DNA from: Actinomycetes bacterium
GTDB lineage: Bacteria > Actinomycetota > Acidimicrobiia > Acidimicrobiales > Ilumatobacteraceae
Direction of reading: 5' to 3'
Assembly: GCA_025359865.1 (NCBI GenBank)
Contig: JANYDH010000081.1
Location: 1-38,632, forward strand
Length of the DNA: 38,632 nucleotides
A model generated the notes under the pieces. The model saw only the letters and a program-made list of their open reading frames with translations. It did not search any database and was not told the DNA's origin. This document shows, piece by piece, positions 1,682 through 30,072 of this stretch (position 1 is its first letter; each line of letters starts with the position of its first letter). Position numbers and translations under genes: made by a program.

Positions 1682-4186
1682 ATGGCCCTGCGTACCGAAG
1701 TCGGGGCATCCCATCTCAGTGTCACGCCGGGCGTGCCGGTTGTGTTCGACATCGAGGTCACCAACACGTCCGAGGTGATCGACGGCGTGACGGCCACGAT
1801 CAGCGGACTCGACCCGTCATGGGTACAACTGGTCCTGCCGGTGGTCAGCCTGTTCCCCGACTCCACCGCCACACTCAGCCTTCGGCTCTCGTTGCCAAAG
1901 GATTGTCTGGCGGGCGAGTACTTGGTGACAGCACGGGTGGTGTCGGTGATCGACCCAGACCGCTCGTCCGAACACGAGTTCTGGCTGTCGGTCGAACCGC
2001 TGGAACAGGCCTCGATGCGGCTTCGACCAAGTCTGGTGGTCGGCCGCAAGCACGCCCGGTTCGACGCCGTCGTGCAGAACGAAGGCAACGTACCGATCGA
2101 CTTCGCGGTCTCGGTCATCGATCCGACCCGTCTACTCACATGCCGGCTCGAGCCGGCCGGGGTGGTGGTGCCCGCAGGCGAATCCCGATTCGTAGAGCTC
2201 CACGTCAGCGGGCCGCGACCGTGGTTCGCCAACAAGGTCGCACGCGAATTCACCGTCCATGCCGCCGGCACCGGACCCGGCAGTGACGAGACCGACCTCG
2301 AACTCGACGCTCGGGGCGGATTCACCCAAACCCCCCGAATCGCACGCGGCCTCGTCACGTTCCTGATCCTGGCGATGATCGTGGCGCTATGGGCCGGGAT
2401 CTTCGCCTTCGCAGCAGGCCTGCTGGGCGACAAGCCGCCACTGACCAAAGAGGTTGGGGCCACCTTCGACACCAGAGGAAAGTCGCCCGCGCCAGCGCCT
2501 GTGGGAGAACCGGTCGTGCCGGGCGCACCGGTTGCTCCGAGCGTTTCTCAGGTCCCGGCGATCCCTGCCGGAACTGCTGCCCCGGGTGCCGCCGGATCGC
2601 CAGCCGCCGGATCGCCAGCCGCTGGATCGCCAGCCGCTGCCCCCGCCGACGCGGGTGCCACGCCGGCGGCCGCCGCTGGTGCGCAACCGATGGTGTTCCA
2701 AGTCAACCTCGATTCGGTGGGTGTCGCGATCGCCGGCTCGGTCACTGCGAGGGCCAACAAGGAGCCGCTGCCACGAATGGTGGTCCAAATCTTCAGGATC
2801 GACCCGAAGACAGCGGTCCCCCTCACCAAGCCGGGGGCCGACGGGAAACCGCTCCCGGTCCCAACCGCGTCTGCTGCGACGGGCGACGACGGGTCGTACA
2901 GTTTCAACAACCTGTTGCCAGGCGATTACAAGCTGCTCGTCACCGGCGCCGGGTTTGTCGATCAGTGGTCTGGGGGAGCGCCGAACCTGGAAACCGCAAC
3001 GACAGTTTCACTGCCGACCGTGGCCAGGAGACCCGGCGAGGAAGCCGTTCCGACAGTGTTCCCGTTCGTGATGGACGGACAAGACGGTGAACTGAGTGGT
3101 TCGGTGATTGCGCCCGAAAGAAAGCCCGGCGTCGAGATCACTGTGGCACTCAGCCAAGCGGGCGATCCCACTCCGGACTTCACGATTCCCGGCCCCACGT
3201 CCTGCACCGTCGACGGACCCTGCGACTACACGTTCCCAGCGTTGCCGACTCCGGCCAGTTACAAGCTCACGTTCCATTCAGACGGGTTCGACGACCGAGT
3301 GGTCACGCAAGACCTCGGAGCCGGCCAGAAGCTGAACCTCAACACGGTCACCCTTGGGGCTGCGCCAGGCAGCATCCAAGGAGTTGTCACGAGTGGGGGT
3401 GTTCCGAAGGGCGGGGTCAAGGTCACCGTGTCGAGTGGACAGTTCACCAAGACCGTCACCACGCCCACGTCTGGAGCGAAGACAGGTACCTACATCGTCG
3501 AAGGCCTCGAAACACCTCGCACCTACGTGGTCACGATGGCGCTCGATGGGTTCGAAGGACAGACGCAGGCCATCGATCTCTTGCCCGGCGCACCCCAGAC
3601 CGTCAACGGCATCGTGCAGGGTGGGATCGGTACGATCAGTGGATTGGTGACCGACTTCGGCACGCCGCCCGCCGGCCTCGGCGGCGTCAAGGTGGTCGTA
3701 TCCGGCGGCACATTCACGGCCGAGACCGCAACACTCACGGGCGGCAGCGGCGACCCGACGAACGGCACGTACACGATCACCGGGCTTCCCAAGGCCGGTA
3801 GGTACACCGTCACGATGTCACTCGACGGATTCGAGAGCGAGACGCTCGTGGTCCAAATCGGCGACACCCAACCGCTTCAACAAGACGTCCAGTTGAAACG
3901 ATCGAAAGCCACGATCGACGGGGCCGTCAAGATCGCAGGGGCCCCCGCATCCGGTGTCATCGTCGAACTGTCCGACGGCGGCAAACCGCGCTCCACGGTA
4001 ACCGCGACCAACCCGGTCACGAACCAGGCCGGCTACTACATCTTCCCCGACGTCGCCCCCGGCACCTACACCCTTACGTACATCATCGCAGCGACATCAA
4101 CCACTCCCGCGCGGACCCGCGTCTTGCTCATCTCTGTGGTCGTCGGCGACGTTCAGACCCGCAACGTCGATCTGCCTGGCGTCTGA
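1682..4186 (+). CDS. bitopic membrane protein, Ig-like N-domain plus carboxypeptidase-regulatory repeats (834 aa)
   Basis: There is no signal peptide. Residues 1-215 form two Ig-like/NEW3-type beta domains resembling the COG1470 domain (motifs GLDPSWV near 42 and GPRPWFAN near 177). One membrane helix lies at about 223-247 (GLVTFLILAMIVALWAGIF), followed by a Pro/Ala-rich linker (265-335). From about 345 to the end there are roughly five beta-sandwich repeats with the signature of CarboxypepD_reg/Cna-B-like domains (GTYTITGLPKAGRYTVTMSL, then DGFESETL). With Arg before the helix and no leader, I infer N-terminus inside and repeats outside. It is translationally coupled at both ends: ATG 2 bases after the previous stop, and TGATG overlap with the next gene. 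The position next to the cap gene suggests a CIS anchor or surface stalk. COG1470-type proteins are known neighbours of actinobacterial CIS genes. Role inferred. Confidence 0.75.
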   Translation: MALRTEVGASHLSVTPGVPVVFDIEVTNTSEVIDGVTATISGLDPSWVQLVLPVVSLFPDSTATLSLRLSLPKDCLAGEYLVTARVVSVIDPDRSSEHEFWLSVEPLEQASMRLRPSLVVGRKHARFDAVVQNEGNVPIDFAVSVIDPTRLLTCRLEPAGVVVPAGESRFVELHVSGPRPWFANKVAREFTVHAAGTGPGSDETDLELDARGGFTQTPRIARGLVTFLILAMIVALWAGIFAFAAGLLGDKPPLTKEVGATFDTRGKSPAPAPVGEPVVPGAPVAPSVSQVPAIPAGTAAPGAAGSPAAGSPAAGSPAAAPADAGATPAAAAGAQPMVFQVNLDSVGVAIAGSVTARANKEPLPRMVVQIFRIDPKTAVPLTKPGADGKPLPVPTASAATGDDGSYSFNNLLPGDYKLLVTGAGFVDQWSGGAPNLETATTVSLPTVARRPGEEAVPTVFPFVMDGQDGELSGSVIAPERKPGVEITVALSQAGDPTPDFTIPGPTSCTVDGPCDYTFPALPTPASYKLTFHSDGFDDRVVTQDLGAGQKLNLNTVTLGAAPGSIQGVVTSGGVPKGGVKVTVSSGQFTKTVTTPTSGAKTGTYIVEGLETPRTYVVTMALDGFEGQTQAIDLLPGAPQTVNGIVQGGIGTISGLVTDFGTPPAGLGGVKVVVSGGTFTAETATLTGGSGDPTNGTYTITGLPKAGRYTVTMSLDGFESETLVVQIGDTQPLQQDVQLKRSKATIDGAVKIAGAPASGVIVELSDGGKPRSTVTATNPVTNQAGYYIFPDVAPGTYTLTYIIAATSTTPARTRVLLISVVVGDVQTRNVDLPGV
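2591..2635 (+). repeat. 15-bp tandem repeat, three copies (Ala-Gly-Ser-Pro-Ala linker)
   Basis: Three consecutive 15-base units, the third with one substitution, encode AGSPA-type pentapeptides in the linker after the membrane helix. Copy-number change would alter linker length without shifting the frame. Confidence 0.85.
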
Positions 4187-6705
4187 TGTACGCCCAGATC
4201 GAACCCAGCCAGGTTGAGCTGAGCCCGCAGGGCAGCGCCACGCTCACCGTGCACGTCAGCAACGCTGGTTCCACCATCGATGCGTACGAAGTGAACGTGT
4301 TCGGCCTCGACCCATCGTGGGTATCGGTCACGCCTCGGCGCCTCTCGCTGTTCCCGTCCGAATCCGAATCTGTCGCGTTGACGATCACGCTCCCACAGAG
4401 CTTCCCATCCGGGCACCGGATGTTGTCCATCCACGTCCAGTCCGAGAACGACCCAACCGAGTTCACGCTGTTGCAAGCCGGAATGTACGTGGCCGAACAA
4501 CCGCGTCTCCAACTGCGAATCGACCCGGCAGTGGTCACCGGCGGAACTTCTGCCGGATTCGGCATGGTGATCACCAATGAGGGCAACAACACCGTCATCG
4601 CCACCCCCTCCGCCATCGATCCGGAAGAGCTGGCGACCATTACGTTCACGCCGGCCATTGTCGAGTTGAACCCTGGGCAACGCGAGGTCATCCAGGCCGT
4701 CGTCGAGGCCAAACGGCCGTGGTTCGGTCAACCCAAGATCCGCACGTTTACGTTCGTGGCCGAGTCGACGACCAAGAGCGAGATGATGGCGACGTTCATC
4801 CAGAAAGCGCGGATCGGTCGTCTGCTGTTTTCGGTACTCGGTCTGTTGACGGCTGCTGCGGTGTTCTACGTCGTACTCAGCCAGTCGTTCAACAAGGTGG
4901 TCGATAAGACGAGCCTCGACAAGAGCTCGCTCGCCGCTGCGCTCGAGCAGGGCGGAGACGGCAGCACGCGCACACCCGTGCATCCGCCGGTGATCTCGGG
5001 CACCGTCGCAGCGTTCTCCACCGGTGCGCACCTCCCCGGGGTGCAGGCCGACCTGTTCGCTGCCGACGACACCAAAGTCCCGATCGCCACCGAGGCCAGC
5101 AACAACGACGGCGTGTTTGCGTTCGGCAACGTCGGCGCAGGCAAGTACAAGCTGCGGCTCAAGGGTGCCGGCTTCGCTGAGATGTGGTATCCGGATCAGG
5201 CCACGGCCGCGGACGCAAAAGAGATCACGACCGAGTTCAACAAGCCGGTCGAACCGTTGGCCGAAGTCAAGCTCGGCGGGCTACCTGGCATGGTCGCCGG
5301 CTCGGTGATTGCCGACAACCCGATCGGTGCAACCGCGACGCTGCTCGTACCCGGAGCAATCAAGGAAGAAGACGCGAAGGTGCAGACCGTGAAGGTGGCT
5401 GCCGACGGCAGCTTCCTGTTCGCGAAGGTGCAGTCGCCCGCGACGTACGAGTTGGTCATCGAACAAGCCGGATTTGCGCTCGAGACACGCACCGTCCGAG
5501 TCGATCCAGGCCAATCCGTCGAAGGGATCGAAATGGTGCTGCGGCGTGCCGGTGGCGTCATCTCCGGCACGGTGTTCGGGTCGGGTTTGCCACTCGGCGG
5601 GGTCACCGTCGAAGCAACCGACGGCACGGCGATCGTCTCCACCGTCACCTTGACGACCGATGCCGGCAAGGGGACGTATTCGCTGCGTGGACTCGCTACG
5701 CCGGCGGTGTACACGATCACGGTGTCGAAAGCTGGATTCACCAGCGAAACCCGGACGGTCGAACTCAAACCCGAAGCAGAATCGCCGCCCATCGACGTCC
5801 AGTTGCAACTTGCGACGGGATCCATCGGCGGTACCGCAACGTTTGCCGACGGTACCCCTGCCGGAGGTATCACCGTCGCCATTGTTGGCGGCGATACGAC
5901 GATTTCCACCACCACCATCAGTTCGTCGCTGGCCGATCCGTTACAGCTCGGCACCTTTCTTGCCCACGACCTTCCGATTCCGGCCACCTACACCGTGACA
6001 TTCACGAAGGCGGGGTACGGCAGCCAGGTGCTGCTCGTCAATCTCGATCCAGCTACCGGACTTTCCGACAAGCTCGACCTCTTCGTCTCACTTGACCGAA
6101 ATGTCGGCACCGTACAGGGGCAGGTCCTCGGAGCTGACGGCCGGCCGGCGGCTCATGCCACCGTCACGCTCAACGATGGCACGACGGCCCGCACGCTCAT
6201 CACCGCCGACGACCTGACCGTTGGTACCGCTAGGACGGGCGATATCCCGCCGGTGTGGAACTTCGAGTTCAGCAACGTCGCATTCGGCACCTACACGCTC
6301 ACGGCCAGCCTGACCGGCACCACGGACGTCGTCAGCCTCGTCAACGTGACCGACGGGGCAACGCAGCACATTCCCGACATCAGACTCGCGGCACAGGCGT
6401 CGCTCGTCGGATCGGTCACTCTGCTCGACTCCGCTGGCGCCTTCCAGCCAATGCCCGACGCAACCGTGCGCCTCTATCTCGCCACAACATTTCCAGGCAG
6501 TTTCGCCGATGCAGCCGCCACGACTGTCACCGACAAAGACGGTTTATACTCGTTTACCTCGCTCGAGGCACCGCAGGATTTCGTCATCGCGGTTTTCCCC
6601 AACGACAACAGTCCCGATCCGCTCGATTCACGACTAGTCTTGACCGAACCGAGCAAACAGAAGACGGTTGCCGTCTTCCAGATTCTTTCGGCCTCGGTCT
6701 TTTGA
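4186..6705 (+). CDS. bitopic membrane protein, Ig-like N-domain plus carboxypeptidase-regulatory repeats (839 aa)
   Basis: Paralogue of the preceding protein with the same plan. Ig-like region 1-205 contains the shared motifs GLDPSWVSV (near 40) and AKRPWFGQPK (near 175). A single membrane helix lies at about 210-232 (after KARIGR: LLFSVLGLLTAAAVFYVVL), followed by a short Ser/Gly/Thr-Pro linker. From about 262 onward there are about six beta-sandwich repeats (for example GTYSLRGLATPAVYTITVSK followed by AGFTSETRTVEL). No signal peptide. Its ATG overlaps the upstream stop by one base (TGATG at 4184-4188), so stoichiometric coupling is likely. The linker is much shorter than in the upstream paralogue. 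I infer a cytoplasmic N-terminus and an extracytoplasmic repeat stalk. The partner of the N-domain could be the CIS particle. No catalytic motif is visible. Confidence 0.75.
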   Translation: MYAQIEPSQVELSPQGSATLTVHVSNAGSTIDAYEVNVFGLDPSWVSVTPRRLSLFPSESESVALTITLPQSFPSGHRMLSIHVQSENDPTEFTLLQAGMYVAEQPRLQLRIDPAVVTGGTSAGFGMVITNEGNNTVIATPSAIDPEELATITFTPAIVELNPGQREVIQAVVEAKRPWFGQPKIRTFTFVAESTTKSEMMATFIQKARIGRLLFSVLGLLTAAAVFYVVLSQSFNKVVDKTSLDKSSLAAALEQGGDGSTRTPVHPPVISGTVAAFSTGAHLPGVQADLFAADDTKVPIATEASNNDGVFAFGNVGAGKYKLRLKGAGFAEMWYPDQATAADAKEITTEFNKPVEPLAEVKLGGLPGMVAGSVIADNPIGATATLLVPGAIKEEDAKVQTVKVAADGSFLFAKVQSPATYELVIEQAGFALETRTVRVDPGQSVEGIEMVLRRAGGVISGTVFGSGLPLGGVTVEATDGTAIVSTVTLTTDAGKGTYSLRGLATPAVYTITVSKAGFTSETRTVELKPEAESPPIDVQLQLATGSIGGTATFADGTPAGGITVAIVGGDTTISTTTISSSLADPLQLGTFLAHDLPIPATYTVTFTKAGYGSQVLLVNLDPATGLSDKLDLFVSLDRNVGTVQGQVLGADGRPAAHATVTLNDGTTARTLITADDLTVGTARTGDIPPVWNFEFSNVAFGTYTLTASLTGTTDVVSLVNVTDGATQHIPDIRLAAQASLVGSVTLLDSAGAFQPMPDATVRLYLATTFPGSFADAAATTVTDKDGLYSFTSLEAPQDFVIAVFPNDNSPDPLDSRLVLTEPSKQKTVAVFQILSASVF

Positions 6706-6775
6706 CCACCATGCGCACGATTCCGTTCCCGTCGCCCGGCCTCTCGGGTCGCCACACAACGAAAGGTCGCGCGAC

Positions 6776-9700
6776 ATGAGAGTCGACGTCCTCGATCCAG
6801 TGGCCTCGGCCGCTCCCGGCGATACGGCCACGTACCGACTGCGGGTGTTCAACGACACTCGCGGCCCAGCCTCATATCGCATGCGCGTCGTCGGCCTGCG
6901 CGACGACGACACCGATCTCCCGATCGGCGAGCAACACGTTCCAGCCGGCGCAGCGATCGACGTCGACGTCGACGTGCGAGTGCCCAAAGCCTTTGCCGCC
7001 GGCCGCCATGCGTTGGCCGTCGAAGTGCGATCCGATCGCCGAGACGAACGCCCCGGGTTGGCCGGTCTCACCGTTGAAGTGTCCTCCATCCAGCAGGTGA
7101 CGCTGCAGGTCATCCCATCGTCATTGAAGGGCCGGCTGTCGGGTCGGTTCAAGCTCGAGATCGACAACCACGAAACCCGCCCGATCGACCTCCAGTTGGC
7201 GGGCGAAGGCCCGCACCTGAGCGTGCAACTCAAGCGCACCGCAGTCACGCTGCAACCGGGCCAGCGAATCCAGGTCAAGGGCAAGGTCCGCGGAGAAAAG
7301 CGCATGGTGCGCTCTGCTCGTAACCATGTGCTCACGTTCTCGGCCACCGGCAAGTCGGCACCGGTCTACACCGATGCCGGCTATCACCAGCGCCCGATCG
7401 TGCCCCGCCAGTTCCGGATGTTCTTGGCGATACTCGTCATCGTTGCATTGTGGGCTGGTCTGCTCGGTGGCGGTCTCTATCTGTGGAAGACCCGCGATCA
7501 GCGCACCGCAACCGCCGTACTAGCAGCACCTCTGGCCATCGATACAGACGGCGACGGCATTCTCGATACAGCGGCACCTGGGGTGGGAATCGCGATGGGC
7601 ACCGGGCAGACGGGGGCCGACGGCGCGTCAGCAGGCGCCGACGGAGGCGTTGCCGCGCCCGGCGAGACGCCGGCGGCCGTCGCCGTGCCCGAGGCGAAGC
7701 CGCCTCGCCCCACTACCGCAATGCTCAGCGGCACCGTCAAAGCCGGTGCGACAGGCAAGAACAGCGGTGTCAGTTTCACCCTGGTGCCGATCAAGTTGGG
7801 TAACGAGTCGACCACTGATTCAGTCGGGTCTGCTGGTGCCAGCCGGCCCGCGAAGATCTGGCCCGCCCGCTACGGCAGAGCGTCACAGGCCGGTGTCAGC
7901 GACCAGCAGATGACCGAGTCGGTCATCGCACCGCTGTCGACCACGTCCGACGATAAGGGTGTCTGGTTGATCCCCGACGTCAAGATCCCCGACAACTACC
8001 GCCTCGAGGTAAAGGCCAACGGGTTCGACACGCAGCAGTTGGTCGTCAGTTTCTCCGACGATGGCAAGCCGGTCGAATTGAAGGCCATCGAACTGCAGCC
8101 GGGGACGGGTCACGCAAAGGGCGTCGTCAACGGGCCGTCCGGCCCTCTTGGCGGCGTAGCGATCACCATCACCGACGGCACCCTGGTCTTCCAGACCACC
8201 AGTTCGAGCAAGGCTGGCGAGGTCGGTCAATGGGACCTGCCCGGTCTCAGCACCCCGAACAACTACACGCTCACCGCCGAGTTGGCCGGGTATGGCACCG
8301 AGGTCCAACTGCTTCCGCTCGCCCCGGGTGGAGCGAACCTGGCCATGCAGATCAACATGGTTCCCGGGGTCGGCTCCATCCGCGGGATCGCCACCATCGG
8401 CAACCCGCCGCATGGCGGCGTCACGCTCACCGCATCCAACGCCGACCTCACCCGCACAGCCACCAGTTTGACCGTTGATCCACAAGGCGCGTTCCACTTC
8501 CCGCAGCTGCCGCTCGGCGTCTACACCATCACCGCCGCTTCGCCCGGATTCCAGACACAAACCCGCATGGTGACGCTCGGCGATGGTTCGCCAGAGAACC
8601 CTGAGGCCGTCGATTTCGCATTGTTGTCGACATCGGCGTCGGTGTTTGGCGACGTCGTCAACGACCGAGGGGAAAAGCTCGTCGGGGTGGGCATCAAGGT
8701 CAGCCGTGACACCGCAACCATCGACTCGTCGACGGCGGCCACGCCGAGCGCCGGCCGCTTCGAGATCAAGGAGCTTCCCCCCGGCAAGTACGTAGTTGCG
8801 TTCGACATGTTCAACCATGCCCCCGAATCGCGAGCTGTCACGCTGGTGGCCGGGCAAGCCTTGGATCTCGGCACCATCACGATGAAGTTCCGCCTCCAGC
8901 CCACCATCGGCGCCACGGCAGTCGTGACCATTCCGGTGTTCGACACCAACGACGCTCCGCTTACCGGTGCCACGGTGCAGTTCTTGGCCGTAGCCGACAA
9001 CAAGGTCGTACTAGAACGGGCCGACAAGAAGAACGAACAGGCCAGTTTCACGTTCAAGGATGTGCCGATCGGTACCTACACCGTCAAGGTCTCCAGGCCG
9101 AACTACCGCACGGTCACCAAACGGATCACCGTTGGGTTGGATCCGATCACCAAGTCGTTCCAGCTCATCAAGCTCGGCCAAGTGACCGGCGCACTCATCG
9201 ATGCATTCAACAAGTCCCGCCAACTCGATGGCTACTCGTTGAGGATCTTCGCCCTCGATGCAAAGGGCAACCGAGACGGTGACGCGCTCCCCGATCCTCC
9301 AGTCGTGGTCGATCGTGCGACACCCAATCTGGAGGGCAAGATCCTCTGGCAGTCGCCGCCCAATGCGCTTCCCGCCGGCACGTACGAGCTCGACGTCGTC
9401 AAGCCGCCTGCCGGCTACTTGGTTCGAAACACTCAGATCATCGATCCGATCACCATCGGTGCGAAGCCGATGCAGTTCACGATTTCGCCCACCGATGAAG
9501 ACACGATCCGGCTGAACGACCTACTTGCCGTTCCGTATCCAACGCTCAAAGGTCGCCTACTGGTTCCGCTCACGAGCAATGGCGACACGGTCAGCTATAA
9601 GCCGCTCGACGCCACCGTGGCCGTCACGCTCAGCTGCCCCAGCGGCGATTCGAACGTACCAGCTGAGCTCGTCGACACCAACACCGGCGTGCCCGGTCTC

Positions 9701-12700
9701 GACAGCTACGTCTTTTCGCGGGCAAGTATCGAGACGCACAAACTGCTCGGTGCTTGCACGATCAAGATCACCTCGGCCAGCTTCCAGCCGGTCTCACTGA
9801 AACTGGCAACACCGTTGGCGGTCAGCGACGGCGTCACCAGCTCCGACCAGATTGTCAACATCCCGCTGACCCCGGTGCTGAATCCCACCGAGCCAGTGTT
9901 CGGGTTCGTGCGTTGGTTCGACTACGGCACGCCGACGAAGACCGAGAAGCTGCTCGAAGGTGTCACGGTCGGACCCAGTGGACAGGTGATCACTGGGTTC
10001 ACGCCATCGACGGGCGACCTCAACACGGTGCCCACGCCGATCAGAACCACCGTGGCGCCATTCACCAGCAAGCCCGATGGAGCATGGGTGGTGAAGGGCC
10101 AGATCTTCGGTTCCTCCACATACAACGTGTCGAGGGACGGATTCAACGACGGATCGTTCGATGTGAAGATGAGCATCACGACCAACAACACCAACGTTCG
10201 CGATGTATCAGCCGGCACCAATCTCAAGTCGACTGCGGCGAGTGCGACCAGCCCGATACTTGTCGAGATGGAGCCCCGCAACCGAGCGATGGGCGGCAAC
10301 GTCGTCCTGGTCTCGAATGGCACCAAGGACTACGCCGGTGTCCGCATCGCCAAAGTCGGTCCCACCACCAATGGGCCCGCCGACACCGGCACGCTGATCG
10401 GCCCGTCAGCGACCGGTGCGTTCTCGATTACCGACGCCCGACCTGGCACGTGGAAGCTGACCATCACCAAGCCCGACCACTACGTCTTCTTCCCTGCCGT
10501 GATATCAGGGGACCCAACAAAGTTCGTTCTCGAGGTCCCACTTCCCCCTGGCTCCGGCGAGTTTGCCATTCCCACGACCACGCCGATTCCGAAGATGGTC
10601 GCGCTCGCCAGCCTCGACGTGAACGTGCTCGAAGCCGGAACAGGAAGGGACCTGCTGGCCACGAGTACTGCACCGACGGTTGCGCTCAACTACAACTCCG
10701 GAGCCACCCCAATCATCGGCGACCTCATCCCAGCCGTTCCCAGCAGCCGTACAGCCCCAGCCGTCACCGCGTTCTGGAAGTACCAGGACCTCATCGTGCC
10801 GCTCGATGGCTCGGCGGCGCTGTTCCACAAGATCGCCGTGGACACCACCGACCACGACCTGGCGGCCGCCACAGTCACCGTCACCGTTAATGGAGTGGCC
10901 GCCGACCCAACGACGCTGAGCGCCGCGAACATCCCGCTGCAACTGCGCCCGGGAGACCACGTGGTTCTTTCTATTGCGCTGGCGAGGTTCGGTTCGCTGA
11001 CCGGTTCCGTCGTCGGCATTGTCGGTCCGACTGCGTCGTCCACTGAAGATCTCCTCGATCCATCGCTGTCCGCCGGCCTGCACCTCACCGCTATGAGAGA
11101 GTTCGACGCCGCTGGAGTTGCGCTCACCGTGCCGGTACCTGCCGACCACGTCATCGTGACACCGGCAACTTCGACTGCACCCGGCACGTTCAAAATCGAC
11201 GGCCCCGCGGGCGGTTACCGCATCACCGTCACCCACGATCAGTACCAGGCCGCGCTGAGCAGTAGCCCGACCGCCCTGGCCTCAACAGGGGCACCCACTT
11301 CCCTGTTCACTCCAGGCGGGGTGCTCTACAGGGTGGCAAACTCCGAAGACCGAGTGCTGGCCACACCCTTCACGCTCGATCTCATCAAGGGCCGCATCAC
11401 GGTGACCGCAGTACAGGGCAACGGGACGAGTCCGCTCGCCGGTGCCAAAGTCATCGTTACCAGGTCTCTGTACCCGCTCCCTGCGCCAGCCGACACCAAC
11501 AGCGACGGCATCACATCCCTGTCGGGCCTGTACCCGGGAACCTATCGAATCGAGATCCGCAAGTACAACCCACTCATTCCCGCCCAGGACGAACGATTCC
11601 CCGTCATCGTCTCTGTCTTGGTACCGAGAGGCACGCTCGCGACGCCCGGCGCGGTGACCGTCAAGGGAGCGTTACTCGAACTCGGCGGCTCAATTACCGG
11701 CACTATCCAGGCCATCAACCTCGACGGCGAAGCGATGCCGATGCCGTCGGGTGTCACGATCACCAGAACCTACAACTCATCCTTGTCACCCAAGGTGGTC
11801 GTGAACTCGGCCACCACAGTGCTCAACTCGGCGTCCGACACCGACCTGTCGGTCGGAAGTCGACCGAGCGCGGTCACGTTCACCCCGCTCATAGCGCTCA
11901 CAACACCGCAGACGTTTGGATTCACATCGTTGGCGTTCGGAGTACATAGTTTGACGTTCTCCTCACCCGTGGTGGGATACAACGCTCCTGCTCCGAAGGA
12001 ATTGACCGTCGACGACAACACCCTCCCCGCCGTGCCGAAAGATGCTGGCACGGTGTCGTACACCGCGAAGAACGTCGTCGTCAAAGTGAACCTCAATTCG
12101 TCGACTGGTGCACCGATCTTCGGCGCCACCGTAAGGCTGATCGACCCCGACACGGGAGAACCCATTCCGCTCGCAGTGCAGCCCGGCGACCCGACCAACC
12201 GGTACACCGCGTTGTCGGTGGTGCCGGAGTTCCTCCAGCTTACACCCGCCGTCACTCAGGTCTACGGACTGATCATCAGCCATCCGCTGTATGGGCTGTC
12301 AGAATCAACAGTGTTCGTCGGAGTACGAGACGACGCGCTCATCGTGCCCATCACGATGACTCCCACTAAGGCCGGTGTGAATGGCCTGATCAAGAAGCAA
12401 CTCACCGAGTCGCCGAGTTCGATCGACAAGTTCGACAACGTCAAGTTCGCGACGATCGAACTCTACAAACTGAGAACTGCTGGCGCGACTCTCGACCCGA
12501 CTCTCGACACGTTCATCGACAGTACGACGACCGATGTAAATGGCGACTATGCCCTCGGCGTGCCCGATACCGTTCTACCGGGGAGTTTCTACGTCGTCGC
12601 CTCGTCTCCTGGCTTCGCTCCCCGCCAATCCGGTGTGAGACCTTTGACTATCACCGACAAAGGGTCCAGCGCCAACTTCAACTTGACGCTACCCAAGTAC

Positions 12701-14749
12701 GCGCAGGCCAAGGTGACGGTCCTCGGCGCTGCCGCTGCCGCCGACACGACCGTCACGATGTCGACATTTGGCGTGACCCCACTGACCTGCACCACGATGC
12801 CGTTGTGCACATTCGCGTCGCTTGACCCGGACAAGTCGTACTCGTGGACGATCACAGCGGCAACGTTCTTCCCCAAGTCGATACCCTCGATCAATCCCGA
12901 TATCGGTGACGTTACGACCGCGGTCTACAACGTCACCCCAGTCCAACGCATTGTCGAGGTGCAGGTCATCCTCGAGGTGCCAGCCGCCTGCACGGATCCC
13001 TTCCCCTCGGTCAGCATCGCCATCCCGTCAGGGATTGGCGCAATTCCGGCCGCCCAAGACATCACCCCGAGTGGGGCTGATGCCGGCTCGTATCGGTTCA
13101 GGTTCACAGGTGTTCCGCTCGGCGCGGGCACCATCACGGTCAGCGAGGCAGGGTGCCGAACCGTTACGGTCACGGTCAGTAACACCGATGTGACCAACAC
13201 CGCCACCATCGACTTGTCGTATGCCGTGAACCTCAAGCCTCCGGTGCAGTACAAGGTCAAGGTCGTCGGTGGTAGTCCACTGGCTACAAACGTCATCGCA
13301 ACGCCCGCCGGTGGTGGAACAGCGATTCAATCGACGTTAAGTGGCGGTTTCTACACGATCCAGCTCGATAGCGGTAGTTGGACCTTCGCTGCGACGCTCG
13401 ACGGGACGGGCGAAGCCCACACCACGACCCCGTTCGTGGTCACGGGACTCACGGCTACCGGTCCGGGTTCGCCTCAGGATCTGACGCTCACGCTGGTACC
13501 GCGCACGGTCACCGTCGTGATCAACGTCACCGGTACGACTGGCGCATCGATCAGTTTCCCCGCCGACATCGCGTCTGGCGCGCCCTTCACCATTGTCGAG
13601 TCAAACCTTCCGTCTGCGTACACCGTCACGAAGGAGGGCTACGTCGTGGTGTCCGACTCCGGGTCAGGTTCGGCGACGTACGCAATCGGAGTCACGACAC
13701 CGATCAGCGTCGTGATGGAAGCTAAGCCCGTTCTCAAGTTCTCCGGGGTCGCGGGCGCCGTCGTCACAGTGACTAATGGGGTCGCCGATTCATCAGATCC
13801 CACCAAGTTCTACTTGAACAGTGCTCTGCTTGCTTCGACCACCTACACCGTCATCAAAGAGGGCTACGTTACGCTCAACACGTCCGCTGTTCCCGTGAGT
13901 CCAGCAACCGTCTTCGCAAACGGATCGACCACACCGATCGACGTCGCACTGGTCGCGAAACCCGTTCTCCAGTTCACCGGCGTCGTGGGCGCAACCGTCA
14001 CACTGGACGGCGGCAACAGCGTCGGCGTCATCGACTCGCACGACGCAGGACTGGCTACCCAACGGTTCTACATGACCAGCGGTCTTTCGTCCCCGACCAA
14101 CTACAGCGTCACCAAGACCGGCTACAGCCCAATCGTCAGTGCCTCCGCAGCTGCCGACAGTCCAGCAACGACGTTCGCTAACGAATCGACTACGACGATC
14201 CCGGTGGTGCTCTTGTCGTTGCCAACCGTTCAGTTCAACGTTCCGAGCGGATCGACCATCACCATCACGTCCGGTCAAACCTTCAACGTTTCCGGCACCA
14301 ACCTGTACACCATTACTTCGGGTACCTCACCATTGGCCTACACCGTGGCGAACCCCCCGTACTTCACCCTGACGGGTTCCGTGTCATTCGCGAGCGGTAG
14401 CCCCGCCACTGTTTCCGGGATGGTGCTTCGACCCTTGCTGTCCGGAACGTTCTCATCAGCTGGGCGTCCGGACTTCTTCCTGTGTCGGACCGATACGACG
14501 GTGGTTGATGCCGGCACGTGCCTGCTGTCGACAGGCAAGGTAGCGGGACCCACCAGTGTGGGAGGGACCAATTACAGCTTCAACCTGCCTCAGGCCATCG
14601 GAGCCGCTAGCGGAACGCTGATCATCGTTGCCAAGAAAGACTCCAACCACTACATCGGTGCCACTGTTGTTTGGGACGGATCATCAACGACTATCGCGGG
14701 ACCTACACTCGACGTCTCCGCAACTGCCGTTACTCCGGACGTCCCCTGA
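6776..14749 (+). CDS. giant bitopic repeat protein (2657 aa), third member of the CIS-linked Ig/TM/repeat set
   Basis: One uninterrupted frame of almost 8 kb. GAAAGG at 6761-6766 precedes the ATG at 6776; in-frame upstream codons to 6668 lie inside the previous gene and lack a site. Residues 1-205 are Ig-like and more diverged from the two paralogues (GLRDDDTDLP replaces the GLDPSWV motif). A membrane helix lies at about 214-236 (FLAILVIVALWAGLLGGGLYL) and an Ala/Gly/Pro linker runs to about 320. The rest is a long chain of carboxypeptidase-regulatory/Cna-B-like sandwiches. The last quarter shifts to a distinct, more regular type with recurring LKFSGVAGAVVTVTNG / LQFTGVVGATVTLDGG units and YTVxKxGY strands (about 2220-2560). 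Such a chain could span a cell envelope or form an external fibre. No enzyme motif is seen. A cell-surface adhesin is the main alternative, but operon position with the CIS cap favours a CIS role. Confidence 0.72.
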   Translation: MRVDVLDPVASAAPGDTATYRLRVFNDTRGPASYRMRVVGLRDDDTDLPIGEQHVPAGAAIDVDVDVRVPKAFAAGRHALAVEVRSDRRDERPGLAGLTVEVSSIQQVTLQVIPSSLKGRLSGRFKLEIDNHETRPIDLQLAGEGPHLSVQLKRTAVTLQPGQRIQVKGKVRGEKRMVRSARNHVLTFSATGKSAPVYTDAGYHQRPIVPRQFRMFLAILVIVALWAGLLGGGLYLWKTRDQRTATAVLAAPLAIDTDGDGILDTAAPGVGIAMGTGQTGADGASAGADGGVAAPGETPAAVAVPEAKPPRPTTAMLSGTVKAGATGKNSGVSFTLVPIKLGNESTTDSVGSAGASRPAKIWPARYGRASQAGVSDQQMTESVIAPLSTTSDDKGVWLIPDVKIPDNYRLEVKANGFDTQQLVVSFSDDGKPVELKAIELQPGTGHAKGVVNGPSGPLGGVAITITDGTLVFQTTSSSKAGEVGQWDLPGLSTPNNYTLTAELAGYGTEVQLLPLAPGGANLAMQINMVPGVGSIRGIATIGNPPHGGVTLTASNADLTRTATSLTVDPQGAFHFPQLPLGVYTITAASPGFQTQTRMVTLGDGSPENPEAVDFALLSTSASVFGDVVNDRGEKLVGVGIKVSRDTATIDSSTAATPSAGRFEIKELPPGKYVVAFDMFNHAPESRAVTLVAGQALDLGTITMKFRLQPTIGATAVVTIPVFDTNDAPLTGATVQFLAVADNKVVLERADKKNEQASFTFKDVPIGTYTVKVSRPNYRTVTKRITVGLDPITKSFQLIKLGQVTGALIDAFNKSRQLDGYSLRIFALDAKGNRDGDALPDPPVVVDRATPNLEGKILWQSPPNALPAGTYELDVVKPPAGYLVRNTQIIDPITIGAKPMQFTISPTDEDTIRLNDLLAVPYPTLKGRLLVPLTSNGDTVSYKPLDATVAVTLSCPSGDSNVPAELVDTNTGVPGLDSYVFSRASIETHKLLGACTIKITSASFQPVSLKLATPLAVSDGVTSSDQIVNIPLTPVLNPTEPVFGFVRWFDYGTPTKTEKLLEGVTVGPSGQVITGFTPSTGDLNTVPTPIRTTVAPFTSKPDGAWVVKGQIFGSSTYNVSRDGFNDGSFDVKMSITTNNTNVRDVSAGTNLKSTAASATSPILVEMEPRNRAMGGNVVLVSNGTKDYAGVRIAKVGPTTNGPADTGTLIGPSATGAFSITDARPGTWKLTITKPDHYVFFPAVISGDPTKFVLEVPLPPGSGEFAIPTTTPIPKMVALASLDVNVLEAGTGRDLLATSTAPTVALNYNSGATPIIGDLIPAVPSSRTAPAVTAFWKYQDLIVPLDGSAALFHKIAVDTTDHDLAAATVTVTVNGVAADPTTLSAANIPLQLRPGDHVVLSIALARFGSLTGSVVGIVGPTASSTEDLLDPSLSAGLHLTAMREFDAAGVALTVPVPADHVIVTPATSTAPGTFKIDGPAGGYRITVTHDQYQAALSSSPTALASTGAPTSLFTPGGVLYRVANSEDRVLATPFTLDLIKGRITVTAVQGNGTSPLAGAKVIVTRSLYPLPAPADTNSDGITSLSGLYPGTYRIEIRKYNPLIPAQDERFPVIVSVLVPRGTLATPGAVTVKGALLELGGSITGTIQAINLDGEAMPMPSGVTITRTYNSSLSPKVVVNSATTVLNSASDTDLSVGSRPSAVTFTPLIALTTPQTFGFTSLAFGVHSLTFSSPVVGYNAPAPKELTVDDNTLPAVPKDAGTVSYTAKNVVVKVNLNSSTGAPIFGATVRLIDPDTGEPIPLAVQPGDPTNRYTALSVVPEFLQLTPAVTQVYGLIISHPLYGLSESTVFVGVRDDALIVPITMTPTKAGVNGLIKKQLTESPSSIDKFDNVKFATIELYKLRTAGATLDPTLDTFIDSTTTDVNGDYALGVPDTVLPGSFYVVASSPGFAPRQSGVRPLTITDKGSSANFNLTLPKYAQAKVTVLGAAAAADTTVTMSTFGVTPLTCTTMPLCTFASLDPDKSYSWTITAATFFPKSIPSINPDIGDVTTAVYNVTPVQRIVEVQVILEVPAACTDPFPSVSIAIPSGIGAIPAAQDITPSGADAGSYRFRFTGVPLGAGTITVSEAGCRTVTVTVSNTDVTNTATIDLSYAVNLKPPVQYKVKVVGGSPLATNVIATPAGGGTAIQSTLSGGFYTIQLDSGSWTFAATLDGTGEAHTTTPFVVTGLTATGPGSPQDLTLTLVPRTVTVVINVTGTTGASISFPADIASGAPFTIVESNLPSAYTVTKEGYVVVSDSGSGSATYAIGVTTPISVVMEAKPVLKFSGVAGAVVTVTNGVADSSDPTKFYLNSALLASTTYTVIKEGYVTLNTSAVPVSPATVFANGSTTPIDVALVAKPVLQFTGVVGATVTLDGGNSVGVIDSHDAGLATQRFYMTSGLSSPTNYSVTKTGYSPIVSASAAADSPATTFANESTTTIPVVLLSLPTVQFNVPSGSTITITSGQTFNVSGTNLYTITSGTSPLAYTVANPPYFTLTGSVSFASGSPATVSGMVLRPLLSGTFSSAGRPDFFLCRTDTTVVDAGTCLLSTGKVAGPTSVGGTNYSFNLPQAIGAASGTLIIVAKKDSNHYIGATVVWDGSSTTIAGPTLDVSATAVTPDVP

Positions 14750-14925: not shown

Positions 14926-15458
14926 TTGACCACGATTCGCCGTCTTGCGACGGATCTCACCGGTCAACTCGACAAGGTGTTTCGAAGCCGAGACCTGAGC
15001 GGCTTCCCGTCCGATCGTCTCCATGAACTCAGCGCGCTCATCGATGGCATCGGATCCGACAGTTGGGCTGCTGGCCCTACCATTGCAGCATTGCACCGAC
15101 TTGACGGCTACCGCCTGCGCAGGCCATTCCATCTCGTCGTGTGTAGCGGTCGCAACCTCGCCCGAGCGGGCCACGTCATCCATTCGAGTAACGAGCTCGA
15201 ACCCATCGACCTTCCAGAGCTGGCTCTCACTCGAGCGTGAGTTCCTACGACTGGTCGACAGTGCAGGGTTGCCCAAGCCCACCATGCAGCAGGTTCTGGG
15301 ATGCCGGGGCAAGAGTCTGATCCGTGTCCGTAGACGTTCGCTTCGAGGGAACCCCGATCGTCGTCGAAGACCCCGCTGATGTGCTGGCCACAGTGCTCGA
15401 GGCGCTCGCTCTATACCTGTCCGCCACGGCCCTCCCTGGCGTTCTCTTCACGACATGA
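14926..15458 (+). pseudogene. degraded AbiEi/DUF559-type endonuclease-domain gene
   Basis: Three frames together give a shrunken member of the actinobacterial DUF559 (VSR-like endonuclease) family. 14926-15240 reads IAALHRLDGYRLRRPFHLVV then AGHVIHSSNELEPID, matching the mid-region, and ends at a stop. The next frame reads LEREFLRLVDSAGLPKP to LIRV. The third reads RVDVRFEGTPIVVE and then DPADVLATVLEALALYL to a stop at 15458. Intact members carry about 100 more residues between the first two blocks (the RTLIDLA region) and an LGYRxHRT-like stretch after VVE. Both are missing, so at least two deletions and two frameshifts have occurred. Domain recognition is from memory of the family. The 176 bases before it hold no gene; they include an 8-bp inverted repeat, GTTCTCTT (14797-14804) with AAGAGAAC (14839-14846). 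Confidence 0.7.
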
Positions 15459-15490
15459 ACAGGACATGCCTCACTGTACGTGGAGAGAAC

Positions 15491-15518
15491 GAGGGGTGGC
15501 GGGCGAGGGGTGGCGGGC
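15491..15518. repeat. 14-bp tandem duplication
   Basis: GAGGGGTGGCGGGC occurs twice in direct tandem just downstream (in transcription sense) of the zinc-ribbon gene stop. No T-tract terminator is visible here. Confidence 0.8.
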
Positions 15519-15523
15519 GATGG

Positions 15524-15943
15524 TCAGAGCATCAAGAATGCGCCGACGGCGCTGATCACCACGATGATGCCCATGATCGCAAGTGGGACGAAATCCTTCG
15601 GCGGCGCGGCGGGGGGCGCCGCGGGCGGTGGCAGCGCTGCGGGCGGCTGATCCACCACGGGCTTCGGATTCCAGTCGCCGCCGCAACGGATGCACACCAG
15701 CGCATCCAACGTGTTCAACTCGCCGCACGTGGTACAGACCTTGGTGCCGATCATCCGGCGCCCGCCGGCTCCGGGCAGTCGACGCAGCGTGGTATCGCCC
15801 GCCACGCTGGCAGCGCCTACGGGCACGGCGGTCGGTGCCCAGAACAGTGGAAAGTCGCAGTGGGTACAAAACTCGTCACTGGCCCGCTGAATCGACGGGA
15901 ATGTGGTGATCTGGCCGCATTGCGGGCAGACGATGTCGCTCAT
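15524..15943 (-). CDS. tail-anchored double zinc-ribbon protein
   Basis: 139 residues. Four CxxC knuckles make two zinc ribbons: CPQC (6-9) with CTHC (26-29), and CTTC (70-73) with CIRC (84-87). A Pro/Ala linker (about 95-116) is followed by one hydrophobic helix at 119-139 that ends the protein (FVPLAIMGIIVVISAVGAFL). There is no N-terminal signal, so this is a tail-anchored topology with the zinc ribbons in the cytoplasm. The ATG overlaps the stop of the tail-protein-I gene by ATGA, so it is the last cistron of the CIS structural operon. I infer a membrane adaptor that binds the baseplate or a cytosolic partner. A standalone zinc-ribbon membrane protein unrelated to the CIS is possible, but the coupling argues otherwise. 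Confidence 0.8.
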   Translation of the reverse strand: MSDIVCPQCGQITTFPSIQRASDEFCTHCDFPLFWAPTAVPVGAASVAGDTTLRRLPGAGGRRMIGTKVCTTCGELNTLDALVCIRCGGDWNPKPVVDQPPAALPPPAAPPAAPPKDFVPLAIMGIIVVISAVGAFLML

Positions 15944-16620
15944 GACTCGCTCCAGATGTCGTATTGCTGCGGCGGCGGCGGAGGCTCATGGGGCAGCGAG
16001 CCTGCGGCCACGGCAATTCCCGGCGATGGAACCGACGGTGCGGCGGGCGAAGCTACCAATGCGGCGAGAGCAGCGCTGGCAGGGGCAACGCTTCCAGAGG
16101 ACGCGTCGGTCGGCCACAGCCGGCGGTCGCCGACGAACAACTCGAACGTGACGCTGGCAGGCAGCTCGGCACGCACGATCCGCAGCACGTCACGTTCGGT
16201 CGCCCAGCCCGTGGACTCGATCCTCAAGACAACGTGCGGATCGGTTACCGGCGCCTCACCCTCGGGGTACACCCCGCCGTTGTCGATCACGGTGGCGGGC
16301 CCATTGGTGACCAACTCCAACAGCATCTTCAGGCCTTGACGTGTTCCACGCCACCGCACGAGCGCGGAGTAGCCGCGCACCATGTCGCGCTGCAACTCAT
16401 CGGGAAGTGACGGGTCGATCCAGTCGACGCCGATCCATTGCCCCATCAACCGCACCATGGCATCCGGCGCGACCGCAGGGTCGAACATGTGCTTCAACGT
16501 GTCGATCTGGTGCAGTTCCGTATCGGCAATCGACTGGAAGATCATCAAGAATCGGCCGAGGAAGTCGTCTTCGACCATGCTGACCGGAAGTTGCTGCAAA
16601 AGCCAATCTGAACGCCTCAT
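15940..16620 (-). CDS. phage tail protein I-like baseplate wedge component
   Basis: 226 residues with the tail_P2_I pattern (P2 gpI; position of Afp12/gp7 in CIS loci): an early FLGRFLMIFQSIADTE helix, DTLKHMFDPAVAPDAMVRLM, the characteristic WIGVDW, and a YSALVRWRGTRQGLKMLLEL segment, then a beta domain (VVLRIESTGWATERDVLRIV). The last 55 residues are Ala/Pro-rich and end in a PPPPPQQYD tail, probably disordered. It is much shorter than Afp12, as is usual in simplified baseplates. ATGA overlaps join it to baseplate J upstream and the zinc-ribbon gene downstream. Acts in the baseplate wedge. Confidence 0.82.
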   Translation of the reverse strand: MRRSDWLLQQLPVSMVEDDFLGRFLMIFQSIADTELHQIDTLKHMFDPAVAPDAMVRLMGQWIGVDWIDPSLPDELQRDMVRGYSALVRWRGTRQGLKMLLELVTNGPATVIDNGGVYPEGEAPVTDPHVVLRIESTGWATERDVLRIVRAELPASVTFELFVGDRRLWPTDASSGSVAPASAALAALVASPAAPSVPSPGIAVAAGSLPHEPPPPPQQYDIWSES

Positions 16621-18551: not shown

Positions 18552-18958
18552 CGCTCGCTCTCCTGAGGAATCACGTAGAACGGGTAGACGAGGTTACGTC
18601 GGTCGTTGGTGGCCCGAATTCGGTATACAAGGTTGATGGAGACCCGGGCCGAGTCGGCCGGGTCTGGTTCGATGATGACCGTTTCGAGTTTGACGCGCGG
18701 CTCCCACTGGGACACCGCATCACGTACCGCTTCGCCCATCAACCCGATTGTATTGGCGTTGATCGGCTCGAACAGCAGGTCCCAGATCCGACACCCGAAC
18801 TGGGGGCGCATCAGTCGCTCACCGGTGGCGGTCATCAGAATCATCCGCAATGATCCGTTGATATCGGTACCAGCAGGGGTGAGCGCAAGCGCGCCAGACT
18901 GATCGACCCTCATCGGAAATGAAATGCCCCGCCCGATGAAGTTGGCTGCATCGCTCAT
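18548..18958 (-). CDS. GPW/gp25-family baseplate wedge protein
   Basis: 136 residues matching the gp25-like fold (Afp9 position): GRGISFPMRVDQSGALAL, SLRMILMTATGERLMRPQFG, FEPINANTIGLMGEAVRDAV, WEPRVKLETVIIEPD and a final VYRIRATNDRRNLVYPFYV. The RP-FG motif and following helix are the family core that nucleates sheath assembly. Start overlaps the spike stop (TGATG) and stop overlaps the J start (ATGA). Function follows the family. Confidence 0.92.
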   Translation of the reverse strand: MSDAANFIGRGISFPMRVDQSGALALTPAGTDINGSLRMILMTATGERLMRPQFGCRIWDLLFEPINANTIGLMGEAVRDAVSQWEPRVKLETVIIEPDPADSARVSINLVYRIRATNDRRNLVYPFYVIPQESER

Positions 18959-20749: not shown

Positions 20750-21415
20750 TCAATCCGCCCGTTCGGGGATGGCGAGCAGCGAACCGGGACGGAGTTCGAG
20801 CGGATCGCCGATGCCGTTCATCGCTGCGATGGTGCGCCACCTCGTGGAGTCGCCGTAGTACTTGGCGGCGATCCGGTCGAGGGAATCGCCGACACGCACC
20901 TGATGGGTACGGTTGGGCGATGGCGTTCCTGATGTGGGGTTCTGCGGCCCCCAATTGGCATCGGGTTCGTACTGCTCGCAGCTGAGATCGACACTGGCAC
21001 GCAATGGCAATCCGTCGCTGGAGAAATACGTGAACGACACCGACATGGTGCTGATGATCGCCTTGAAGGTGTGGATCTCTGTTCCCCAGTTGAACTTGAT
21101 CCACGGCGGACGACCGTTGTTGCGTTCCGCGTCGTAGCCGGCCAGCGACGTGTCGACATCCATCAGCCCCAGCAGCTTGTTGGTGTGCTCAGTGACCGAC
21201 TTGCCAGTTGGCGTGGTATCGAACGTCAGACTGAGGCTGAACGAACCGCTGTTGCCCCCGGCATAGCGTTGGGTGGGGATGTCGCGCCCGGGGATGCTCT
21301 TGCTCTCCCACTTGTTGCCAGCCGTGAACGAAAACTTGGCCGGGTTGAACATGCAGTCGATCCTCGTCCCGGTCTCGGTGGTGAAGAACGCCTTTTGGAG
21401 TTGGGTGGGAGCCAT
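20750..21415 (-). CDS. LysM-containing CIS hub/tube adaptor (Afp7/Pvc7 type)
   Basis: 221 residues. Residues 1-155 have the CIS tube-adaptor domain (FNPAKFSFTAGNKWESKSIP, GSFSLSLTFDTTPTGKSV, TFKAIISTMSVSFTYFSSDG, GLPLRASVDLSCEQYE). Residues 170-221 form a LysM-like module (THQVRVGDSLDRIAAKYYGD and LRPGSLLAIP), which in T4 gp53-like proteins packs against the hub rather than binding peptidoglycan. It connects spike and tube. The ATG overlaps the stop of the 1376-residue gene by one base and its stop is 1 base from the spike start. Confidence 0.9.
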   Translation of the reverse strand: MAPTQLQKAFFTTETGTRIDCMFNPAKFSFTAGNKWESKSIPGRDIPTQRYAGGNSGSFSLSLTFDTTPTGKSVTEHTNKLLGLMDVDTSLAGYDAERNNGRPPWIKFNWGTEIHTFKAIISTMSVSFTYFSSDGLPLRASVDLSCEQYEPDANWGPQNPTSGTPSPNRTHQVRVGDSLDRIAAKYYGDSTRWRTIAAMNGIGDPLELRPGSLLAIPERAD

Positions 21416-25984: not shown

Positions 25985-26147
25985 GTCGTACCGCCTCCCA
26001 GGCTCGCTCGTTCAAATCGGCTACCCGCCGGATCAGCCGGGCACGATCGGTGTGCTCAAGATCGAGAAGATCACCGATCGACCAATGCAGATGATATGCA
26101 AGATAGGCGATCTCGTCCCACAATGCTTCCGTGGGATAGAGCTTCAT
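25977..26147 (-). CDS. DUF6760-family small protein
   Basis: 56 residues. It starts MKLYPTEALWDEIAYLAYHL followed by HWSIGDLLDLEHTDRARLI. This is the compact helical pattern of DUF6760, a short protein regularly found between tail-assembly-chaperone-like and gp19-like genes in CIS loci, where it resembles the small T4-type chaperone or hub adaptor slot. The ATG at 26147 overlaps the upstream stop (ATGA), and the last 8 bases overlap the start of the tube gene, so it is locked into the operon. Function unknown. A tail-assembly or gp-loading role is inferred from position. Confidence 0.82.
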   Translation of the reverse strand: MKLYPTEALWDEIAYLAYHLHWSIGDLLDLEHTDRARLIRRVADLNERAWEAVRHV

Positions 26148-30008: not shown

Positions 30009-30072
30009 GGCCGGAGCGTAGCCCGATTGCGGCGGCGCTCCGTCGCACCGTCAGACATGATTGACTGCCGAC

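Follow-up and report, generated by a model that had tools for sequence, protein, structure and literature searches.

In an actinobacterial genome, the cap gene of a class IId-like contractile injection system (CIS) is immediately followed by genes for three tandem single-pass membrane proteins, here named B1, B2 and B3, that may hold the CIS particle at the membrane of the producing cell. The genes lie in what we call the window, the whole stretch of DNA analyzed, which is a 38.6-kb contig (38,632 nucleotides, nt) of an assembly of 4.99 Mb in total. As judged by similarity and gene content, and not by a class tree, the gene set of the window is a nearly complete class IId-like CIS. At the level of sequence, the trio belongs to the family of Streptomyces Sco4256-4258, is linked to CIS genes, recurs as a conserved cassette in which two members have fixed repeat numbers, and occurs in loci without a linked gene for the membrane adaptor CisA. 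We give a slightly better than even chance to the reading that the trio is a membrane dock or trigger of a cytoplasmic IId-like CIS rather than tube cargo.

Three bitopic proteins on one plan

B1 (834 amino acids, positions 1682-4186), B2 (839 amino acids, 4186-6705) and B3 (2657 amino acids, 6776-14749) are encoded on the forward strand and share one bitopic plan. In B1, two immunoglobulin (Ig)-like domains are followed by a transmembrane helix, a low-confidence linker and 5 transthyretin-like repeats; B2 has 6 such repeats and B3 at least 10 that are detectable. The tandem Ig/ASH-like N-domain of B1, proposed to be cytoplasmic, comprises residues 1-216 (1682-2329) according to an AlphaFold2 model and its PDB matches. 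The helix, placed by hydropathy and the same model, covers residues 224-242 (2351-2407), and the stalk of 5 CarboxypepD_reg-like repeats, delimited by Pfam and a repeat hidden Markov model (HMM), lies at 2729-4168. The corresponding helices span residues 213-231 of B2 (4822-4878) and 216-234 of B3 (7421-7477), and the B2 repeats occupy 4993-6618. Each protein has a single strong hydrophobic helix, with hydropathy maxima of 2.42-2.62 over 19 residues; the 14 other CIS proteins of the window all stay below 2.0 (maximum 1.72, in the AAA protein), and B3 has one further weak hydrophobic stretch far downstream at 1398 (1.61). Hydropathy revealed no N-terminal signal-like stretch in B1-B3, and signal-peptide-driven export was rejected on that ground. 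The original prediction for this DNA, made from its sequence alone, had described three bitopic open reading frames (ORFs) of up to 2657 residues, free of signal peptides, each with one helix at about 210-247 and a chain of carboxypeptidase-regulatory-like domains, and the present results agree with it on all of these points. The spacing of the genes also fits the predicted coupling of cap, B1 and B2: a single nt separates the cap stop (1680) from the B1 ATG (1682), and the last nt of B1 is also the first of B2. B2 and B3 are separated by 70 nt.

The N-domains of B1 and B2 are 29% identical (E 2e-29), and that of B3 matches them at E 4e-7 (B1) and 9e-8 (B2), each value coming from a single comparison. 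At 20-21% identity to B1 and B2, the B3 N-domain is a distant but clear relative. The motifs GLDPSWV and RPWF, which had been assigned to the first two proteins, are indeed shared by B1 and B2; B3 has neither. The earlier notion of one N-domain type holds in the sense of a homologous fold family, but not in a stricter sense, as the three are old paralogues with B3 this far diverged. In the stalks, Pfam CarboxypepD_reg matched at 5e-34 (B1), 3e-39 (B2) and 2e-48 (B3), and the repeat HMM, which was both started and refined on the proteins whose repeats it then counted and is weak for the divergent B3 repeats, gave 5, 6 and 10.

AlphaFold2 modeled residues 1-247 of B1 (nine alignment rows) with a predicted local distance difference test score (pLDDT) of 91, as Ig-like sandwiches at 3-104 and 110-216 and a helix at 222-246. 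The full-length B1 model (3 rows) had a mean pLDDT of only 62.6, with a low-confidence linker at 250-346 and beta domains beyond it, and for this reason the repeat numbers were taken from the HMM. The best PDB matches to the N-domain model were ASH/MSP-like domains of the ciliary central apparatus and CEP192, with E near 1e-9 and template-modeling (TM) scores of only 0.3-0.5. ASH/SPD-2 domains were among the matches, and the pilus chaperone FimC, at rank 44, agrees with the HHpred reading of Sco4256 given in PMC10020575. NCBIfam matches of the trio proteins to choice_anch_T and NikL were below cut-off and were taken as chance or distant Ig similarity. No match to eCIS_core, which resides in a separate gene, was found in B1-B3, where the matches above cut-off were to beta-sandwich repeat families, and no Pfam phage-fiber model exceeded its own cut-off in these proteins (phage_tail_N reached 0.029 in B2). 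A scan of genome contigs with the single B1 sequence returned no relative.

The predicted topology of the trio, with the N-domain in the cytoplasm and the repeats outside, is supported from several sides. A strong transmembrane-like helix was found in 30 of 30 trio proteins of sufficient length and in all 11 other relatives scanned (G262_B1p and a truncated G015_B3a were dropped from these counts), and the net charge is higher on the N-terminal flank of the trio helices in 26 of 30 cases, with 3 ties and 1 reversal. Kinase and FHA domains function in the cytoplasm; in 3 of 3 Deinococcus homologues scanned, of five records matched, they are fused on the N-domain side of the helix, and the Ig domains would therefore be cytoplasmic as well. 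SCO4256 is listed among lectin-isolated glycoproteins of the S. coelicolor membrane proteome (PMC6593405), in a table that includes three proteins deemed very likely intracellular by its authors; the listing is good, although not absolute, support for exposure outside the membrane.

A conserved cassette linked to injection systems

Searches with the N-domain found tandem trios not only in related genomes of the same family but also in further families of its order and outside the class. Thirteen trios were examined: those of G000 (the genome of the window), G016, G015, an uncultured Ilumatobacter metagenome-assembled genome, G019, G146, G226, G313, G067, G305, G376, G500 and G507, with locus L060, which is the G015 contig, not counted twice. 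These loci were picked for three tandem N-domains; the real tests are the cap position, the gaps, the tree and the repeat counts. The cap gene lies directly upstream of B1 in 13 of 13 trios, at a gap of -26 to +34 nt in 12 of them; in G507 the gap is 419 nt, or -4 if taken from the long ORF start of B1. With the starts chosen, all junctions are 4-nt overlaps in the Ilumatobacter genome and in G305. B3 is inverted in G015, and it runs past the contig end in G019 and, judged by frame, in G376. In a tree of 45 N-domains, sequences group by position in the cassette for B3 (99/99) and B1 (86/95); the B2 grouping is weak and needs two changes. The grouping of B3 and B1 by position leads to the conclusion that the three paralogues probably predate the divergence of these families and have stayed together since. 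The tree covers fetched N-domains; unfetched matches (such as G280, G285, G477 and G565) stand outside it, and the G249 locus (L055) was unused.

The same repeat model counted 5 repeats in 13 of 14 complete B1 copies (4 in G226), 6 repeats in all 15 complete B2 copies, and anywhere from 5 to 16 across 9 complete copies of B3, a truncated G262_B1 having been dropped. B3 thus acts as an internal control: it shows that stalk length is free to change, yet B1 and B2 keep theirs nearly constant. That three different subunits are retained together, two with a set stalk length and one with a variable one, suggests a hetero-assembly, which the original prediction had put forward for stalks of three different lengths; its subunits and repeat counts are borne out, and the assembly itself is presumed. 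Extra B1-B2-like pairs with no B3 seen beside them occur in G067 (L048 2299-6887), where the pair precedes PAAR and sheath genes and has 5 and 6 repeats, and in G262 (L053), where it is on another contig and the B2 copy has 6 repeats.

By position, annotation and architecture, the N-domain of the trio is assigned to the Streptomyces Sco4256-4258 family, represented in the sequence comparisons by an S. clavuligerus homologue. This homologue, 559 amino acids long and labeled 'hydrolase', is encoded in the plasmid CIS cluster of S. clavuligerus, between the sheath/regulator side and the ATPase/cap side. B1 of the window matched it at 3e-8 in a plasmid collection, and the reverse search, in a small set of fetched loci, returned B1 at 1e-10 and B3 at 6e-6. 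SCO4256 is likewise annotated as a 'putative hydrolytic protein' (PMC6593405). It is this position and label, together with a tandem pair beside the sheath in G485 that bears ricin lectin and ChW domains past the transmembrane helix, that identify the family.

Other homologues place recognizable domains on either side of the helix. Past it, all three long single homologues scanned from actinobacteria (G429, G409 and G389) have PASTA domains, while ChW was found in Streptomyces NBC_01471 and PG_binding_1 in S. clavuligerus. N-domain homologues in the CIS clusters of three fetched Deinococcus plasmids (five matched) have the order Pkinase (about 10-275), FHA (about 340-398), Ig (from about 426), helix (677-695 or 700-718) and a long tail (L037 12723-17501, L038 12708-17549, L039 12708-17516). 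The D. psychrotolerans kinase may be a pseudokinase, the usual VAIK lysine seeming, by eye, to be replaced. Beside CIS genes on a Pseudanabaena plasmid there is a further, weak match (E 0.04). Around the plasmid copies of Streptomyces NBC_01471 and S. cadmiisoli, the annotation shows no CIS core genes within 16 and 12 kb, respectively; the S. cadmiisoli protein (L036 11956-13777) directly precedes a PAAR-domain gene.

The strength of the CIS link was gauged in a phylum sample of 346 actinobacterial genomes at least 90% complete, with the N-domain model at E <= 1e-10 and an IId-like sheath defined by a match at E < 2e-127. The N-domain was found in 35 of these genomes and the sheath query in 33, of which 26 had a strong IId-like sheath. 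Of those 26, 24 carry the N-domain, no more than about 25 kb from the sheath on one contig in 20 and on other contigs in 4; among the remaining 320 genomes, which lack such a strong sheath match, it occurs in 11 (Fisher 2e-26, uncorrected for relatedness). The two without it are G052 and G544; G520 has only a 49-residue N-domain fragment near the sheath and a full copy elsewhere. Among the 7 genomes with weaker sheaths, the N-domain occurs in one (G361), on another contig. A sample of 296 genomes of the class (E <= 1e-8) gave 24 with the N-domain, 19 with a sheath and 11 with both (p 4e-9, again uncorrected for relatedness), and the 41 nearest genomes gave 9 sheath matches, 16 N-domain matches and 7 with both.

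Versions of the N-domain away from CIS genes were also seen. The genome of the window has an extra copy on another contig (L029 7234-8517, G000:C115), away from the CIS. Such non-CIS versions (L027, L028, L029, L030, L031) are about 410-430 amino acids long, have a C-terminal domain of their own, adjoin a large PD40/ASH-type protein and, by eye, are in some cases near heme-biosynthesis genes. G018 (L033) has a similar PD40/ASH neighbor beside a CIS, the Pfam run having covered the neighbors in L029 and L033.

The S. coelicolor CIS (CIS-Sc) has a known bitopic membrane adaptor, CisA (SCO4242), which is oriented N-in/C-out (Casu 2025, PMC12237407), and close homologues of which are absent from the Roseiflexus CIS according to the consulted part of PMC12998442. 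As a query we used the transmembrane and C-terminal part of an S. clavuligerus protein whose gene follows Cis12, a position that led us to take it as CisA. It gave no match in any other fetched locus at 1e-3 and none in G000 at 1e-4, and homology of B1-B3 to CisA was rejected. Of 19 non-trio IId loci in the phylum sample, 12 have CisA on the sheath contig at a distance of about 10-13 kb (counted as linked), 3 have it on another contig and 4 lack it; none of the 7 trio loci has a linked copy (Fisher 0.005, computed on linked copies). G052 was left out of this comparison and G507, with two loci, was counted twice. Three of the 4 non-trio loci that lack CisA (G429, G409 and G389) encode the longer N-domain protein with PASTA domains. 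The G429 homologue (L070 7343-10570) starts with a weak zinc-ribbon match (0.0045), followed by Ig, transmembrane, PASTA and ASH domains; S. clavuligerus CisA starts, by eye, with Cys-rich motifs, and the G429 protein may combine features of both adaptors.

The injection system of the window

The cap/terminator protein (Pvc16/Cis16-like; Pfam Pvc16_N 5.7e-16; start position uncertain) is encoded at 895-1680 on the forward strand. Beyond the trio, a run of genes on the reverse strand encodes the baseplate wedge proteins Cis12 (Tail_P2_I, 15940-16620; Pfam PF09684 1.5e-6) and Cis11 (Baseplate_J, 16617-18551), Cis9 (gp25, 18548-18958), a VgrG-like spike/hub (Phage_base_V and Phage_GPD, 18958-20748), a LysM-bearing tube initiator (CIS_tube, 20750-21415) and an eCIS_core (DUF4157-type) protein of 1376 amino acids (21415-25545; Pfam eCIS_core 1.1e-5), which, from the role given to this class in the literature, is likely the tube cargo of the locus. 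The run continues with a gp19 tube protein (25520-25984), a tail-assembly-chaperone-like protein (26144-26716; phrog_508 5.4e-4), two further gp19 tube proteins (26727-27170 and 27181-27648), the sheath (27690-29267; Pfam sheath domains) and a DUF4280 (PAAR-like) tip protein (29622-30008). The AAA+ ATPase of the CIS (Cis15-like, 30061-32142, start uncertain), which matches AAA genes of other CIS loci, is on the forward strand. A forward-strand ORF at 15455-16339 was rejected as a gene, being antisense to Cis12. The probable true start of the sheath is the GTG at 29267: homologues mostly align only from residue about 64-95 of the 616-amino-acid ORF, whose first about 91 codons, overlapping a dispersed repeat, are probably non-coding. 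The repeat, of about 100-170 bp, lies at 29420-29590, between the PAAR-like gene and the sheath, and parts of 29400-29620 have 37 further matches in this genome, of which the closest reach 91-94% identity.

Proposed docking at the membrane and its alternatives

In the proposed mechanism, B1, B2 and B3 would be three paralogous single-pass subunits of a docking or trigger complex, presumably a hetero-oligomer. Their two Ig-like domains, in the cytoplasm, would hold a component or an end of the CIS particle, and the helix is predicted to cross the membrane. The B1 and B2 stalks, of 5 and 6 domains and fixed length, would cross the wall, measuring an estimated 20-25 nm or so if each domain adds about 4 nm, and the far longer B3 stalk would reach beyond it. 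A stress or contact signal from outside, or plain anchoring, would then reach the docked particle and allow it to fire, with the trio taking the place of CisA in these loci. The most complete form of this proposal is tentative, and we doubt that it will hold in every part: a trans-envelope hetero-oligomeric dock of three Sco4256-type subunits, in which B1 and B2 act as a wall ruler, B3 acts as an outside contact sensor, CisA is replaced, and the cytoplasmic IId CIS is retained at the envelope and fires there, as a type VI system does.

Sco4256-4258 have been published as CIS effectors with a shared N-terminus, a transmembrane segment and a variable C-terminus (Casu 2023, PMC10066040). Extended to the trio, this would mean that the Ig N-domain loads the protein on or in the particle, and that, once the particle has fired, the helix and repeats act on the membrane or wall of the target, which we consider rather unlikely. 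Sco4256 was present in 3 of 3 particle purifications (PMC10020575), Sco4256-4258 are toxic in E. coli, and their triple deletion left the tube lumen mostly empty and abolished nisin-induced death (Casu 2023, PMC10066040). Of these findings the empty lumen speaks most strongly for cargo, and the dock reading does not account for it, even if the triple deletion could affect loading indirectly; the toxicity is unspecific, because CisA, not described as an effector in the consulted part of PMC12237407, is also toxic in E. coli. An injected protein sits poorly with the listing of SCO4256 as a glycoprotein of the membrane proteome (PMC6593405), and the combination of kinase-FHA on one side of the helix with PASTA or wall-binding domains on the other fits a resident bitopic protein. 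The locus also has its own eCIS_core protein, a class described as a cargo partner elsewhere, and the fixed 5 and 6 repeats would fit a structural span better than a toxin.

Two further possibilities were weighed. The trio could be adhesin-like stalks of the surface or wall, co-expressed with the CIS and making no direct contact with the particle, with the Ig domains serving another partner. CarboxypepD_reg-type repeats are common in surface proteins, and short homologues occur without a CIS, beside a large PD40/ASH protein; the presence of the N-domain in nearly all sampled genomes with an IId-like sheath (24 of 26), together with the short distance between cap and B1 (-26 to +34 nt in 12 of 13 trios), makes this quite improbable. 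Alternatively, the proteins would be tail fibers assembled on the particle before its release, with the CIS acting extracellularly and the helix serving only for attachment. Fiber genes usually lie after baseplate wedge genes (PMC10020575), and a homologue does directly follow the wedge gene cis12 in G429 and G409, though not in the window. The strong helix in every trio protein and relative scanned, and the kinase or wall-binding fusions, fit a protein retained in the membrane of the producer, and we regard fibers as very improbable.

Several observations also weigh against a dock. The flank charges of the 11 non-trio relatives favor N-in in 3, tie in 1 and are reversed in 7, including the 3 Deinococcus proteins. 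The topology of these relatives rests on their fused domains, and we lowered our confidence in a dock, and raised that in the cargo and surface readings, slightly. The cytoplasmic N-domain of the original prediction keeps the support of the trio charges, the kinase-FHA on the same side, the wall-binding domains opposite and the SCO4256 glycoprotein, and has these charges of the relatives against it. As to the binding to one particle end in the original prediction, the coupling of cap and B1 hints at the cap as the partner, but in other IId loci the homologue follows the baseplate wedge gene (G429 and G409) or sits between the genes for the sheath and those for ATPase and cap. Among the 41 nearest genomes, 9 of the 16 with the N-domain have no sheath match; their N-domain frames are 410-520 amino acids long in 8 and 775 in one. 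It follows from these short homologues that the N-domain family is not strictly CIS-bound and need not bind CIS parts in every case. Conversely, G052 has a sheath of the window type and neither an N-domain nor a CisA match; no VgrG-like or LysM-tube match was found in the stretch read (L056/L057), so that its CIS is possibly reduced. As for CisA, 6 of the 12 linked matches to the Streptomyces query are weak (2e-6 to 6e-5), and G376, a trio genome, has a weak match on another contig (2.7e-6). Finally, sheath identity to the window's is 65-74% in trio genomes and 47-55% in other IId-like loci (compared by identity, with no sheath tree); the trio loci thus share one similar-sheath group, and CisA may have been lost just once.

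The trio resembles Sco4256-4258 (Casu 2023; Vladimirov 2023) in its chaperone/Ig-like N-domain, single transmembrane helix, variable C-terminus and IId CIS locus. It differs in that three old paralogues follow the cap in a set order and bear transthyretin-like stalks, with 5 domains in B1, 6 in B2 and many in B3, whereas Sco4256-4258 end in a short lectin or wall-binding domain. Like CisA, the trio is predicted to be bitopic, is linked to CIS and is proposed to have the role proposed for CisA; unlike CisA, to which it has no detectable sequence similarity in the fetched loci, it is the linked protein in trio loci, where CisA is unlinked. The thylakoid-anchored CIS of cyanobacteria are also held at the membrane of the producing cell, as is proposed for the trio, but their anchor is a baseplate extension and not a set of separate bitopic proteins (PMC12237407). 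Sle1/Sle2 and the Tme-type effectors with a DUF4157 partner are, like the trio, accessory proteins of actinobacterial CIS, and the window has its own eCIS_core protein; they are coiled-coil, tape-measure-like cargo, for which the portions of the literature consulted describe neither an Ig N-domain nor a transthyretin-like stalk. In the open-access literature, with subscription papers and preprints mostly outside its scope, we found nothing that joins carboxypeptidase regulatory repeats, or Ilumatobacter, with contractile injection, nothing that joins FHA domain, Deinococcus and contractile injection system, and, by listing, only phage papers for Ig-like domain, transmembrane and contractile injection together; these negatives are no proof that the trio is unpublished.

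For the way in which cytoplasmic CIS contact a membrane and fire there, CisA is the one adaptor described in the sources consulted. The trio is a second candidate membrane-adaptor system, and its fixed counts of 5 and 6 repeats give a testable geometric hypothesis. The published injected-toxin reading of the Sco4256 family is also called into question, in that several relatives seem to be proteins that stay in the membrane, with a CIS side in the cytoplasm and a wall side outside. If this is true, Sco4256-4258 would, by extension, be receptors rather than injected toxins.

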